Below, piece after piece: positions 36,390 through 40,220 of a stretch of DNA of 64,000 nt (position 1 is the stretch's first letter; every line of letters begins with the position of its first letter). The notes under the pieces were generated by a model, which was not told the origin of the DNA, searched no databases, and saw nothing but the letters and a program-made list of their open reading frames with translations. The position numbers and the translations under genes were made by a program. The stretch is from Geodermatophilus marinus (GTDB lineage: Bacteria; Actinomycetota; Actinomycetes; Mycobacteriales; Geodermatophilaceae), in assembly GCF_003428645.1 (NCBI RefSeq), contig NZ_QVQH01000004.1:1-64000 (forward strand), read 5' to 3'.

Positions 36390-37397
36390 TCAGCCCTGCG
36401 CGAGCGCCCCGTCCGAGCTGAAGACCAGGCCGATCGAGACCTCGCCCTGCTGGATCGCGCTCTTGGTCAGCGGGCCGCCGGCGTCCAGCTCGCGGAAGTC
36501 GGCGAACTGCAGGCCGTAGGTCTCCTCCAGGCCGGGCTGGCACTGCGGCCGCTCCGGGCACTCGGCCGGCCCGCCGAGCACGAGGGACCCGTCCCCGCAG
36601 GCGTCGGCGAGCTCGGAGAGCGTCGAGACGCCCACCTGGTCGGCGAAGGTCTCGGTGACCGCGAACGCGTTCTGGTCGGCGGCCTCGCTCGGCTCGCCGA
36701 ACACCAGCCCGGCCTGCTCGGCCAGCGGCTGGAGGGCGGTGACCGTCTCCTGGACGTCCCCGCTGGCCACTCCCTCGGCGTCGGCACCGTTGACCTGGCG
36801 GTTGAGGAAGTCGGTGACCGTGGCGAGGTACTCGGGGAAGACCTGGATGTCGGCGCCGGACTGCAGCGCCGGCAGGTACAGCTCGCGGTTGCCGACCTCG
36901 GTGACCGAGGCGTCGAAGCCGGCGGCCTGGAGCACGTCGGCGTAGACGTTGGCCAGGATCGTCGACTCGGTGAAGTTGGCGCCACCGACGACGATCGGCC
37001 CGCTGCCCTGCTCGAGGCCGCTGGTGTCCACGTTGGCCTCGACCCACTCGGCGGCGACCTCCTCGGCGCTGCGCCGCTCGAGGTCCACCGCGGCGTTCAT
37101 GTCGATGAGGTCCTCGGTGGTGAGCGCCGCGGACACCGCGTCGAGGGCCGGCAGCAGCGCCGGGTTGGCCGCGGCGGTGGCGGCGTTGACGGCCGGGACG
37201 ACGTTGTCGGCGTTCTGCAGCTGCTGGTCGTCCTCGAGGACGACGAGCTGGTCGCCGGCGACCGGGGCGCAGGCGTCGCCGGAGGCCGTACCGCCGCCAC
37301 CCCCGCCGCCGGTGCCCGACGAGCCGGACTCGCCGCACGCGGTGAGCAGCACCGCCGCCAGGGCGACTGGGGGGATGACCCGGGAGATCCTGCGCAT
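36390..37397 (-). CDS. circularly permuted osmoprotectant-binding lipoprotein (OpuAC/OsmF family)
   Basis: A 335-residue periplasmic-type binding lipoprotein for glycine betaine/choline-like solutes. The signal peptide ends LLTAC with lipidated C21, then a Gly-rich linker. The domain order is unusual. Residues 49-128 (DQLVVLEDDQQLQNADNVVP onward, then ALTTEDLIDMNAAVD) are what normally forms the C-terminus of this family. Residues 132-335 start IVVGGANFTESTILANVYAD, normally the mature N-terminus, and end GLVFSSDGALAQG, normally followed directly by the LVVLEDD segment. The fold can close because the old ends are joined through a linker. It is followed upstream by the permease genes of the same transporter. 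Confidence 0.88.
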   Translation of the reverse strand: MRRISRVIPPVALAAVLLTACGESGSSGTGGGGGGGTASGDACAPVAGDQLVVLEDDQQLQNADNVVPAVNAATAAANPALLPALDAVSAALTTEDLIDMNAAVDLERRSAEEVAAEWVEANVDTSGLEQGSGPIVVGGANFTESTILANVYADVLQAAGFDASVTEVGNRELYLPALQSGADIQVFPEYLATVTDFLNRQVNGADAEGVASGDVQETVTALQPLAEQAGLVFGEPSEAADQNAFAVTETFADQVGVSTLSELADACGDGSLVLGGPAECPERPQCQPGLEETYGLQFADFRELDAGGPLTKSAIQQGEVSIGLVFSSDGALAQG

Positions 37398-37554: not shown

Positions 37555-38292
37555 TCAGGAGGGGACGCCGACCGCGGTGGCCTCCGGCTCGCCGGCCGGC
37601 GTGCGGTCGCGGCGCCGGGGCGGGAAGGGCAGCCGGCGCCGGCCGGGCGTCACGGCCCACGAGACCAGCACGAGCACGGCCTCGGTGGCCAGCGCGAGCA
37701 GCGCCACCAGCAGCGCCCCGGCGATCATCTGGCCGTAGTCCTGCTGGCCGAAGCCGAGCGTGATGATCTGGCCGAGCCCGCCCCCGGCGACCAGGGCGGC
37801 CAGCGAGGCGGTGGCCACCACCTGCACCGCGGCCGTGCGCAGGCCGGTCATCACCAGGGGCAGGGCGAGCGGGAGGTCGACCCGGCGGATGACCTGCCCC
37901 CGGCTGAGCCCCATCCCCCGCGCCGCCTCGCGGACGTCGGCGTCCACCCCGCGGAAGCCGACGAAGGTGTTGGTGAGGATCGGCGGGACGGCGAAGACCG
38001 CCAGCGCGATCGTGGTGGCGCGGGGCCCGAAGCCGATGGGCGTGACGGCGAAGACGGTGAGCAGCGCCAGCGTCGGGATCGCCCGGCTCACGTTCGACAC
38101 CACGACGACCGCGCCGCTGCCCCGGCCGGTGGTCGCGATGAGGATGCCGAGCGGGACGGCCAGGGCCGCGGCCGCCAGCACGGCGAGCACCGAGATGGTC
38201 AGGTGCTCGACCAGCAGGTCCAGGATGCCCCCGGGCCTGGTCCAGTTGAACGGGTCGTTGAGGTAGACGAACGCGTCCCGGAAGTCGTTCAC
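37555..38292 (-). CDS. osmoprotectant ABC transporter permease
   Basis: A 245-residue OpuCB/OpuCD-type membrane component with about six helices. The binding-protein-dependent transport signature is VDADVREAARGMGLSRGQVI, preceding RRVDLPLALPLVMTGLRTA. A charged C-terminal tail ends GEPEATAVGVPS. Its GTG overlaps the stop of the other permease (GTGA), so the pair is coupled and probably forms a heterodimeric channel. The binding protein follows after 157 nt. Confidence 0.93.
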   Translation of the reverse strand: MNDFRDAFVYLNDPFNWTRPGGILDLLVEHLTISVLAVLAAAALAVPLGILIATTGRGSGAVVVVSNVSRAIPTLALLTVFAVTPIGFGPRATTIALAVFAVPPILTNTFVGFRGVDADVREAARGMGLSRGQVIRRVDLPLALPLVMTGLRTAAVQVVATASLAALVAGGGLGQIITLGFGQQDYGQMIAGALLVALLALATEAVLVLVSWAVTPGRRRLPFPPRRRDRTPAGEPEATAVGVPS

Positions 38293-39017
38293 GCCCGCAC
38301 CGCCCGGGTCCACGGGGTGAGCAGGCGCTCCGCCCCGGCGAGCAGCAGGTCCGCGGTGAGCGCGAGCAGCACGCAGCCCAGCGCGCCGGTGACGATCTCC
38401 GCCCGGTAGAAGTTGCTGTTGAAGCCGCCGATGATCAGCTGGCCGAGGCCGCCGTTGCCGGTTATGACCCCGACGGTGACCAGGGCGACCGTGGAGACGG
38501 TCGCGATCCGCAGGCCGGCCATGAAGGCGGGCAGGGCCAGCGGCAGGTCGACCTGGAGGAACAGCCGCGCCGGGCCGTAGCCCATCCCCCGGGCGGCCTC
38601 CCGGACGTCGGGTGGCACCGCCTGCAGCCCGGCGAGGAAGTTCCGCACGAGGATGACCAGCGTGTAGAGGGTCAGGCCGACCAGCACCGTGGTGGCCGAC
38701 AGCGGGCCGGTGTACGGGGCCAGGAACGCGAACATGGCCAGCGAGGGGATCGTGTAGACGATCGTCGAGAGGCCGAGGACCGGCCCGGACAGCCACCGGG
38801 TGCGGCGGGCGAGCAGGGCCAGCGGCAGCGCGATCAGGGCCCCGAGCAGCACCGCACCGATCGTGAGCCTGACGTGCTGGCCGGCGTAGCCCACAATGGT
38901 GGACCAGTTGGCGGTCACGTAGGACGGGTCGAACCAGGGGTTCGGCGCCTCCTCCGCCGCGACCACCACCGAGCCGCTCGCCGCGTCCAGCAGAGGGCGC
39001 GCTCCCAGGAAGGCCAC
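38289..39017 (-). CDS. osmoprotectant ABC transporter permease
   Basis: A 242-residue partner permease. Membrane helices start at about residue 50, with the coupling motif VPPDVREAARGMGYGPARLF then LQVDLPLALPAFMAGLR. The first 40 residues are soluble and include a WFDPSYV segment typical of OpuC permeases. GTG 39017 is 7 nt after TAGCGT, so it is probably leaderless. This start is only 3 nt from that of the divergent ATPase gene. Confidence 0.92.
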   Translation of the reverse strand: MAFLGARPLLDAASGSVVVAAEEAPNPWFDPSYVTANWSTIVGYAGQHVRLTIGAVLLGALIALPLALLARRTRWLSGPVLGLSTIVYTIPSLAMFAFLAPYTGPLSATTVLVGLTLYTLVILVRNFLAGLQAVPPDVREAARGMGYGPARLFLQVDLPLALPAFMAGLRIATVSTVALVTVGVITGNGGLGQLIIGGFNSNFYRAEIVTGALGCVLLALTADLLLAGAERLLTPWTRAVRA

Positions 39018-39020
39018 GTC

Positions 39021-40220
39021 GTGGACGCTACTGCCGCCGCCCCCTCCCTGACCAAGCCGAGGCCCGCGGGTGGCGGGGCGGAGGAGATCCGGCTCGAGGG
39101 CGTGAGCAAGACCTACGCCGACGGGACGGTCGGCGTCGCGGAGCTCGACCTGACCTTCGCCGCCGGGGAGCTGTCGGTGCTGGTCGGGCCGTCCGGCTGC
39201 GGCAAGACCACCACCATGAAGATGATCAACCGGATCATCGAGCCGACGACCGGCCGGATCCTCCTCGGCGGCGAGGACGTCACCCGGGTCGACCCCGACC
39301 GGCTGCGCCGGCGGATCGGCTACGTCATCCAGAACGTCGGCCTGTTCCCCCACCAGACCGTGCGCGCCAACGTCGGCACCGTCCCGCGGCTGCTCGGCTG
39401 GGACCGGGCGCGGACCCGGGCCCGGGTCGACGAGCTGCTGGCGACGGTGGGCCTGGACCCGGCCGTGCACGGCGACCGCTACCCGGCCCAGCTCTCCGGC
39501 GGCCAGCGCCAGCGCGCCGGGGTGGCCCGGGCGCTGGCCGCCGACCCCGCCGTCCTGCTGATGGACGAGCCGTTCTCCGCGGTCGACCCGGTGGTGCGGG
39601 ACCGGCTGCAGGGCGAGTTCCTCCGCCTCCAGCAGACGGTGCGCAAGACGATCGTGTTCGTCACCCACGACATCGAGGAGGCGGTGCGGCTCGGCGACCG
39701 CATCGCGGTGATGAGCCACGGGGGTCACGTGGAGCAGTTCGCCCCCCCGGCGGAGGTCCTCGGCTCGCCGGCCAGCCCGTTCGTGGCCGACTTCGTCGGC
39801 GCCGACCGCGGGCTCAAGCGGCTGGCGGTGACGCCGATCGACCCCACCGACCTCGAGCACCCCCCGGTGGTGCGGGTGACCGACGGGCTCGCCGACGCGC
39901 GCGCGGAGCTCGACCGGTCCGGCGCCCGGTGGGCGGTGGTGCTCGACGACCGCGGCGCGCTGCACGGTTGGCTGTCGGCCGACCGGGCCGCGGGCCCCGG
40001 GACCGTGGAGGCGGGGGCCCGGCGGATGGACGCGTGGGTGCCGGCCGACGCCTCGCTCAAGGACGCCTTCGCCACCATGCTGCAGCTGGAGGCCGGCTGG
40101 GTGGCGGTGCTGGACGGCGACCGGTTCCTCGGCGTCCTCACGCCGGAGTCGCTGCACGCCGCGCTGCGCCGGTCGGTGGACGGCGCCATCCCGGAGACCG
40201 CGGGCGCCTCCCTCGCCTGA
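39021..40220 (+). CDS. osmoprotectant ABC transporter ATPase with CBS domains
   Basis: A 399-residue OpuA/ProV-type ATPase. Walker A is GPSGCGKTTT, the signature LSGGQRQRAGVARAL, Walker B LLMDEPFSAVD and the switch histidine is in VTHDIEEA. After about residue 265 a CBS-pair region follows (ARWAVVLDDRGALHGWL and GWVAVLDGDRFLGVLTPESL), which in OpuA senses ionic strength or c-di-AMP. The disA gene is in the same window. GGAAGG 8 nt before the GTG is the ribosome site. Genes for the permeases and binding protein are divergent. Confidence 0.93.
   Translation: MDATAAAPSLTKPRPAGGGAEEIRLEGVSKTYADGTVGVAELDLTFAAGELSVLVGPSGCGKTTTMKMINRIIEPTTGRILLGGEDVTRVDPDRLRRRIGYVIQNVGLFPHQTVRANVGTVPRLLGWDRARTRARVDELLATVGLDPAVHGDRYPAQLSGGQRQRAGVARALAADPAVLLMDEPFSAVDPVVRDRLQGEFLRLQQTVRKTIVFVTHDIEEAVRLGDRIAVMSHGGHVEQFAPPAEVLGSPASPFVADFVGADRGLKRLAVTPIDPTDLEHPPVVRVTDGLADARAELDRSGARWAVVLDDRGALHGWLSADRAAGPGTVEAGARRMDAWVPADASLKDAFATMLQLEAGWVAVLDGDRFLGVLTPESLHAALRRSVDGAIPETAGASLA
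39025..39030 (-). promoter_or_regulatory. -10 element TAGCGT of the permease operon, inside the ATPase start
   Basis: Minus-strand TAGCGT is 7 nt before the permease GTG and lies within codons 2-4 of the divergent ATPase gene, so the two start regions overlap physically. Confidence 0.45.

Follow-up and report, generated by a model that had tools for sequence, protein, structure and literature searches.

A circularly permuted substrate-binding lipoprotein in an OsmF/OpuC-type importer locus of Geodermatophilus marinus, with other rotations among its relatives

The substrate-binding protein (SBP) encoded in the window, the 64,000-nucleotide stretch of Geodermatophilus marinus DNA analysed here, is very probably the membrane-anchored binding protein of an OsmF/OpuC-type ABC importer, with a chain circularly rotated from the normal segment order A-B-C to C-A-B. 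We named the segments after the normal order, A covering approximately residues 132-267, B residues 268-335 and C residues 49-125 of the window protein. The reading frame opens with an ATG at 37397 and closes with a stop at 36392-36390, and its translation runs from a signal peptide ending in LLTAC21, which we take to be a lipobox with C21 as the lipid anchor, through a Gly-rich linker to QLVVLEDD...NVVPAVN...LTTEDLIDMN...EWVEAN, and only then to IVVGGANFTEST and the terminus VFSSDGALAQG. The features of the locus are as follows, and a promoter and terminator scan found nothing.

36390..37397, minus strand: gene of the permuted substrate-binding lipoprotein, order C-A-B, 335 amino acids plus stop (from the translation, with two PF04069 stretches swapped)
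37335..37397, minus strand: signal peptide and lipobox, residues 1-21 (from the sequence; C21 in 111 of 111 aligned ORFs)
37254..37334, minus strand: Gly-rich linker, residues 22-48, including C43 (codon 37269-37271) (from model pLDDT; C43 in 111 of 111)
37023..37253, minus strand: segment C, residues 49-125, the normal C-terminus, PF04069 profile positions 187-256 (54.3 bits alone)
37212..37247, minus strand: hinge strand 2, residues 51-62, with which the fold now begins (aligned to EgtUC 433-444 via 7txk 201-212; strand at 51-55 in the model)
37005..37022, minus strand: joint of the old C-terminus and old N-terminus, residues 126-131 (length 5-8 in every one of 142 C-A-B ORFs, counting duplicates)
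36597..37004, minus strand: segment A, residues 132-267, the normal N-terminus, last residue C267 (codon 36597-36599) (from Pfam; C267 in 111 of 111)
36681..36707, minus strand: hinge strand 1, residues 231-239, the putative sole remaining covalent link between the lobes (aligned to EgtUC 332-340)
36393..36596, minus strand: segment B, residues 268-335, with C280/C286 in the motif ECPERPQC and the terminus VFSSDGALAQG (from Pfam and cysteine counts)
37555..38292, minus strand: permease 2, BPD_transp_1 (81.4 bits)
38289..38993, minus strand: permease 1, BPD_transp_1, start provisional (68.2 bits)
39021..40220, plus strand: divergent ATPase with a CBS domain, start provisional (ABC_tran 119.6 bits, CBS 33.3 bits)

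PF04069 was the sole Pfam family matched by the protein, in two stretches, the better of which aligned residues 134-333 to positions 2-184 of the 257-position profile. A profile search of the genome likewise returned positions 2-184 and 187-256 as two places, with 187-256 encoded ahead of 2-184 and hence out of profile order. As encoded, the protein scored 141.8 bits against a gathering cut-off of 21.2, and the two pieces exceeded that cut-off separately (90.6 bits for A+B, 54.3 for residues 49-125), while re-cutting the residues to A-B-C gave a single stretch over profile positions 2-256 at 160.7 bits, confirming the rotated segment order noticed in the preliminary description. In a phmmer comparison with solved structures, residues 130-329 aligned to 3-193 and residues 51-119 to 201-268 of Archaeoglobus fulgidus ProX, the second piece being weak alone at 8.5 bits; the OsmF equivalog NF049931 (NCBIfam) was not reached, at 85.1 bits against a curated cut-off of 400. 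The joint, first estimated at about five residues, measures ~6-7 by the segment limits used here and 5-8 among 142 C-A-B ORFs (107 distinct), so the estimate was near. The cut lies between B and C, not between A and B as in the OpuAC-type rotation, B-C-A.

AlphaFold2, run on 315 residues with an input alignment (A1) of 55 C-A-B proteins, the others being 55-87% identical to the window protein, predicted one confident fold (pLDDT 92.0, pTM 0.86), with segment C blocks at 95-98 from residue 51 onward. The linker was the only long stretch below 50 in this whole-protein model, at mature residues 1-5 and 7-19, rising to ~88 in the C43 block. Within this predicted disordered stretch, residues 22-28 (37314-37334) show G22, G25, S26, S27 and G28 kept in at least 97% of 111 C-A-B ORFs.

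The preliminary description had itself named a competing arrangement, in which residues 49-125 or so form an extra domain and 132-335 a complete binding protein alone. Foldseek could be read in its favour, as the full model aligned to normal-order structures over only ~200-225 columns (best TM by query 0.54, for 4nd9 over 212 columns; best E-value for 1sw1); we took Foldseek as a sequential aligner, of which low full-length scores are expected, though these are no proof of permutation. Given that normal-order structures were covered in parts only, we folded the lobe-1 piece, C+A (49-232), alone, and it formed one compact lobe with a pLDDT of 92.4 and a pTM of 0.87. Against the PDB this lobe gave 1062 matches at E ≤ 10, and the five at E ≤ 0.001 were all B. 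subtilis OpuAC chains (138-148 columns, rmsd 2.5-3.9, TM 0.59-0.61 by query). In B. subtilis OpuAC (2b4l) C runs into A, at 96-155 and 166-241, indicating that segment C packs before A as in a known fold. Leaving out lobe 2 lowered residues 49-58 to a mean pLDDT of 48, from 88-95 in the complete model, which has a strand at 51-55. Moreover, the A+B piece ends at profile position 184 of 257, so that 132-335 lacks the last 73 positions, and the missing 187-256 are precisely what 49-125 match. The profile positions and the lobe model together led us to reject the extra-domain arrangement as highly improbable. In sequence and predicted fold, the window protein contains every segment of the PF04069 fold once, in rotated order, and circular permutation is supported further by the 107 distinct proteins of the same order that a search of the kind first suggested has now recovered.

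Binding proteins of PF04069 type close by bending two hinge strands. In the accessible part of the report on EgtUC (PMC9732360), lobe D1 comprises residues 233-331 and 445-506 and lobe D2 residues 341-432, joined by two strands of ~10 residues. We transferred these limits through the phmmer alignment to 7txk, whose numbering we assumed from the construct limits (residue = 232 + chain index, 274 residues), and with this assumed offset linker 2 (433-444) falls on window residues 51-62 and linker 1 (332-340) on ~231-239; strands are predicted at 51-55 and 231-233. The mapping of linker 2 makes the new N-terminal edge the first residue of hinge strand 2. Each lobe of a C-A-B protein would then be a continuous chain, lobe 1 at ~51-230 and lobe 2 at ~240-335, with linker 1 as their sole covalent join, and the B-C-A and mid-B cuts described below would fall inside lobe 2, keeping both linkers.

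The C-A-B proteins carry a distinctive pair of cysteines. C43 and C267 occurred in all 111 C-A-B ORFs first aligned, a set in which several species appear twice; in the full set of 164 distinct proteins, whatever their order, both were present in 104 of 107 C-A-B proteins, neither in the remaining three (L183, L185 and L186, family code f84) and one alone in none. A cysteine like C267 was found in 0 of 57 proteins of other orders, and a cysteine just before segment C in 1 of 57. C280/C286, which are present without C43/C267 in 32 of 35 A-B-C proteins, thus probably pair with each other. In the un-rotated tree the f84 rows (100/92) are sister to the 30 remaining C-A-B rows in the main clade (100/99), which tentatively suggests that C43/C267 were gained after the rotation; on the other hand, the free tree separates L189, which carries both cysteines, from the rest, and the grouping of every C-A-B protein except f84 as a clade was neither shown nor rejected (p-AU 0.178). 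The 104 co-occurrences perhaps amount to just one or two evolutionary gains or losses, so the disulfide pairing is something we infer; if formed, a C43-C267 bond may re-tie the cut hinge.

The preliminary description had surmised that actinobacterial relatives share the rotation, and full-length C-A-B proteins, counted as genomes with a match spanning the query, were indeed present in 91 of 112 genomes of Geodermatophilaceae. In overlapping samples of the order, class and phylum, 150 of 397 order genomes matched at E ≤ 1e-70, in 22 of 85 genera, with all matches listed spanning the query; full-length C-A-B proteins occurred in 17 of 394 class genomes and 2 of 396 phylum genomes. A further 21 class genomes matched the A+B part only, and all nine of these that were inspected were A-B-C. 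The nearest named relatives of the window protein belong to Geodermatophilus, and the best 80 named loci are titled Geodermatophilus, Blastococcus, Modestobacter, Klenkia, Geodermatophilaceae, Micromonospora, Catellatospora, Actinotalea, a Sporichthyaceae MAG, a Spirochaetaceae MAG and one unverified Bacillus. All 110 loci L006-L115, chosen by similarity, were C-A-B. With this many genomes and 107 distinct proteins, an assembly or sequencing artefact, in favour of which nothing was found, has a negligible probability. A tblastn search of 72,556 plasmid records for plasmid spread gave 318 with a match, none covering 80% of the query.

Several single loci deserve separate mention. The MAG titled Spirochaetaceae (L092), which sits among actinobacterial rows in the tree, and the unverified Bacillus sp. 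AZ43 (L061) hold C-A-B proteins and are probably misnamed or misbinned. A second C-A-B copy adjoins the first in G077, G078, G079, G081 and G083. In Klenkia soli (L110:5797-8106) and at L196:1556-3517, tandem SBP genes have stop-to-stop frames that abut in the same reading frame, a layout that could give rise to a permutant by duplication.

The genes alongside are those of an OpuC/OsmF-type importer, two BPD_transp_1 permeases and an ATPase, here with a CBS domain, and the order divergent ATPase, permease 1, permease 2, SBP was found in 67 of 67 C-A-B loci of at least 10 kb. If the longest reading of both is correct, permease 1 and the divergent ATPase have almost no intergenic gap (38990-39025). 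Permease 2 lies upstream of the SBP gene in 137 of 141 C-A-B, 30 of 34 A-B-C, 17 of 20 B-C-A and 2 of 2 mid-B loci. Among the 11 loci where it was not found, the upstream sequence is shorter than 700 bases in seven, of which three (L120, L159, L192) show permease 2 by tblastn; L016, L003 and L162 have 1.4-1.6 kb upstream with no permease match, and L189 has an ATPase there instead. The four C-A-B exceptions are L114 and L179 (<430 bases upstream), L016 (1.6 kb, no match) and L189 (ATPase, same strand). The SBP had a dN/dS of 0.23-0.42 against 11 relatives, indicating purifying selection.

Other rotations occur in the same operon slot. Most matches in the phylum sample had the normal pattern, with B-C-A over the full profile A2, built partly from B-C-A and mid-B proteins of that sample, in 11 of 396 genomes and, truncated where the contig stops, in one further genome; in another two the cut fell midway through B. 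This mid-B arrangement is a fourth cut point, seen in the sister genomes L122 and L134 and, by eye, in the divergent L160, which was left out of the tree. Eight genomes of one Geodermatophilaceae genus (L146-L153; one of the eight, G094, 70% complete) had B-C-A and no C-A-B, so three orders coexist within one bacterial family. Of the 201 ORFs that had both A and C, 142 (107 distinct) were C-A-B, 35 A-B-C and 20 B-C-A, one had A-C and one C-A, and two were scored B-C-A-B, the latter being a single B cut mid-way (profile position 31 onward first, up to 31 last); partly duplicated intermediates were absent from these 201.

To count origins, we un-rotated 164 distinct proteins and thinned them to 86 (35 A-B-C, 34 C-A-B, 15 B-C-A, 2 mid-B). 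The free tree contained seven order changes, four for B-C-A, forced by well-supported branches, and two for C-A-B. A single clade was rejected for all permuted proteins (p 2e-81), for B-C-A plus mid-B (1.5e-6) and for B-C-A alone (7.5e-7). For B-C-A subsets, which were defined after inspection of the tree and in a tree where L196_2513, L002 and L187 sit on long branches, joining 1+2 (8e-5), 1+3+4 (0.011) and 2+3+4 (1.5e-11) was rejected, and joining 3+4 was not (0.153). C-A-B as one clade was not rejected (p-AU 0.577), its likelihood being slightly above that of the free tree. Provided that reversals are rare, these tests point to at least three B-C-A events, one mid-B event and one C-A-B event. 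A second C-A-B origin may be marked by L189, a divergent C-A-B protein that the free tree separates from the 33 remaining ones and whose gene lies behind the same-strand ATPase.

For four C-A-B proteins, A, B and C each led to the same few nearest A-B-C sisters, mostly L190-L193, and a paralogue chimera was thus unsupported. This argues against the mixing of distant paralogues in particular, and more generally we consider it rather improbable that the swapped order arose by gene fission and fusion or by recombination between two paralogues, even though fission and fusion is one of the two main models of permutation in the accessible part of PMC3320104. We propose instead that A-B-C was rotated to C-A-B in what was probably a single event, in an ancestral member of the actinobacterial class, with tandem gene duplication followed by a new start and a new stop as the likeliest route, although the 201 classified ORFs included no partly duplicated intermediate.

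The ligand-binding residues of A. fulgidus ProX are Y63, D109, Y111, R149, Y190 and Y214, as given in an excerpt of PMC10087775. In the phmmer alignment these correspond to Y190, D241, N243, R283, F326 and D64 of the window protein, so that the aromatic cage (ProX Y63, Y111, Y190, Y214) is replaced by Y190, N243, F326 and D64, two aromatic and two polar residues. The name osmoprotectant-binding protein originally given to the product is thereby left unsupported, as the replacement of two cage tyrosines by N and D means that the ligand need not be betaine. Among ten A-B-C proteins hand-picked as nearest in the tree, Y190, D241, N243, R283 and D64 were identical in 10 of 10 and F326 in 5 of 10; since five pocket residues are common to the A-B-C sisters, most of the pocket predates the rotation. 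ProX of Mycobacterium tuberculosis, actinobacterial like the window protein, presumably has the normal segment order. The available portion of PMC5894108 reports that this protein likewise has no aromatic ligand cage and binds polyphenols.

Taking these observations together, we expect the fold, the pocket and the docking faces to match those of a conventional two-lobed binding protein, which would still close on a small solute and deliver it to both permeases. Its new ends would lie at the border of lobe 2 and hinge strand 2, leaving hinge strand 1 alone to join the lobes covalently, and hinge strand 2 would keep its position and become the first strand of the chain; the C43-C267 pair, probably a later addition, may be disulfide-bonded and so tie the freed strand to lobe 2. 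The rotation itself was probably close to neutral. An adaptive permutation, in which moving the anchor from the lobe-1 tip to the hinge edge alters the hold over the permeases, or a loosened hinge strand alters closing kinetics, seems unlikely to us but carries some weight: C-A-B is kept in many genera (22 of 85 in the order sample at E ≤ 1e-70; 17 of 394 class genomes), C43/C267 look like a response to a cut hinge, and anchoring is offered in the accessible part of the Treponema TpMglB-2 paper as the reason for that permutation (PMC4990184). Against it, the same importer type works with the other orders, as the permease 2 counts indicate (30 of 34, 17 of 20 and 2 of 2), and five of six pocket residues are unchanged in near sisters.

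The window protein shares with normal-order ProX, OsmF, OpuBC, OpuCC and EgtU (PF04069) the profile, fold, operon type and equivalents of ProX Y63, D109 and R149, but theirs is the order A-B-C with two covalent hinge strands and its own is C-A-B with, by our mapping, one; A. fulgidus ProX has a four-tyrosine cage where the window protein is polar at two positions. Rotation of a PF04069-type fold is already known: OpuAC 2b4l was reported in 2008 as a circular permutant relative to ProX proteins, in a comparison of 2b4l, 1r9l and 1sw1, according to an excerpt of PMC2395249. Thus the normal order assumed at the outset as the family background holds for ProX- and EgtU-type proteins, whereas B. subtilis OpuAC is itself rotated in another way. 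OpuAC likewise runs from the old C-terminus into the old N-terminus, but it belongs to a distant subfamily and is B-C-A, which would place its cut inside lobe 2 with both hinge strands kept; profiles A1 and A2, searched against the PDB, did not reach it. The L. lactis OpuA structure 3l6g has C at 193-252 and A at 3-75, a segment order different from that of 2b4l, and the L. lactis and B. subtilis OpuAC are described as 44% identical homologues (PMC2861598). TpMglB-2, a permuted type I glucose-binding lipoprotein described in 2016 (PMC4990184, accessible part), is also a naturally permuted anchored binding protein, but of another fold class, and its permutation adds a fourth lobe crossing where the C-A-B rotation would remove one of two. 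The hinge-border cut and the recurrence of rotation within a single operon slot look new; neither these two nor the C-A-B order itself nor the cysteine pair turned up in the accessible parts of the open-licence literature on binding-protein permutation, including the CPSARST and TpMglB-2 papers.

As a tentative possibility, which we regard as doubtful as a whole, natural rotation was repeated within one actinobacterial family (C-A-B, B-C-A at least three times and mid-B, all in the same operon slot), the C-A-B cut severed one of two hinge strands to give two continuous lobes, and a later C43-C267 disulfide serves as a replacement hinge, the coupling of the lobes possibly depending on the extracellular redox state. 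Because permuted SBPs are annotated as two partial domain matches, more may have been overlooked. Repeated rotations at one operon position offer rare natural replicates for the origin of permutants. One hinge strand of C-A-B proteins appears to be cut at its border, yet the protein is kept across many genera, and as natural C-A-B and A-B-C pairs share most of the pocket, the need for two covalent hinges is directly testable.
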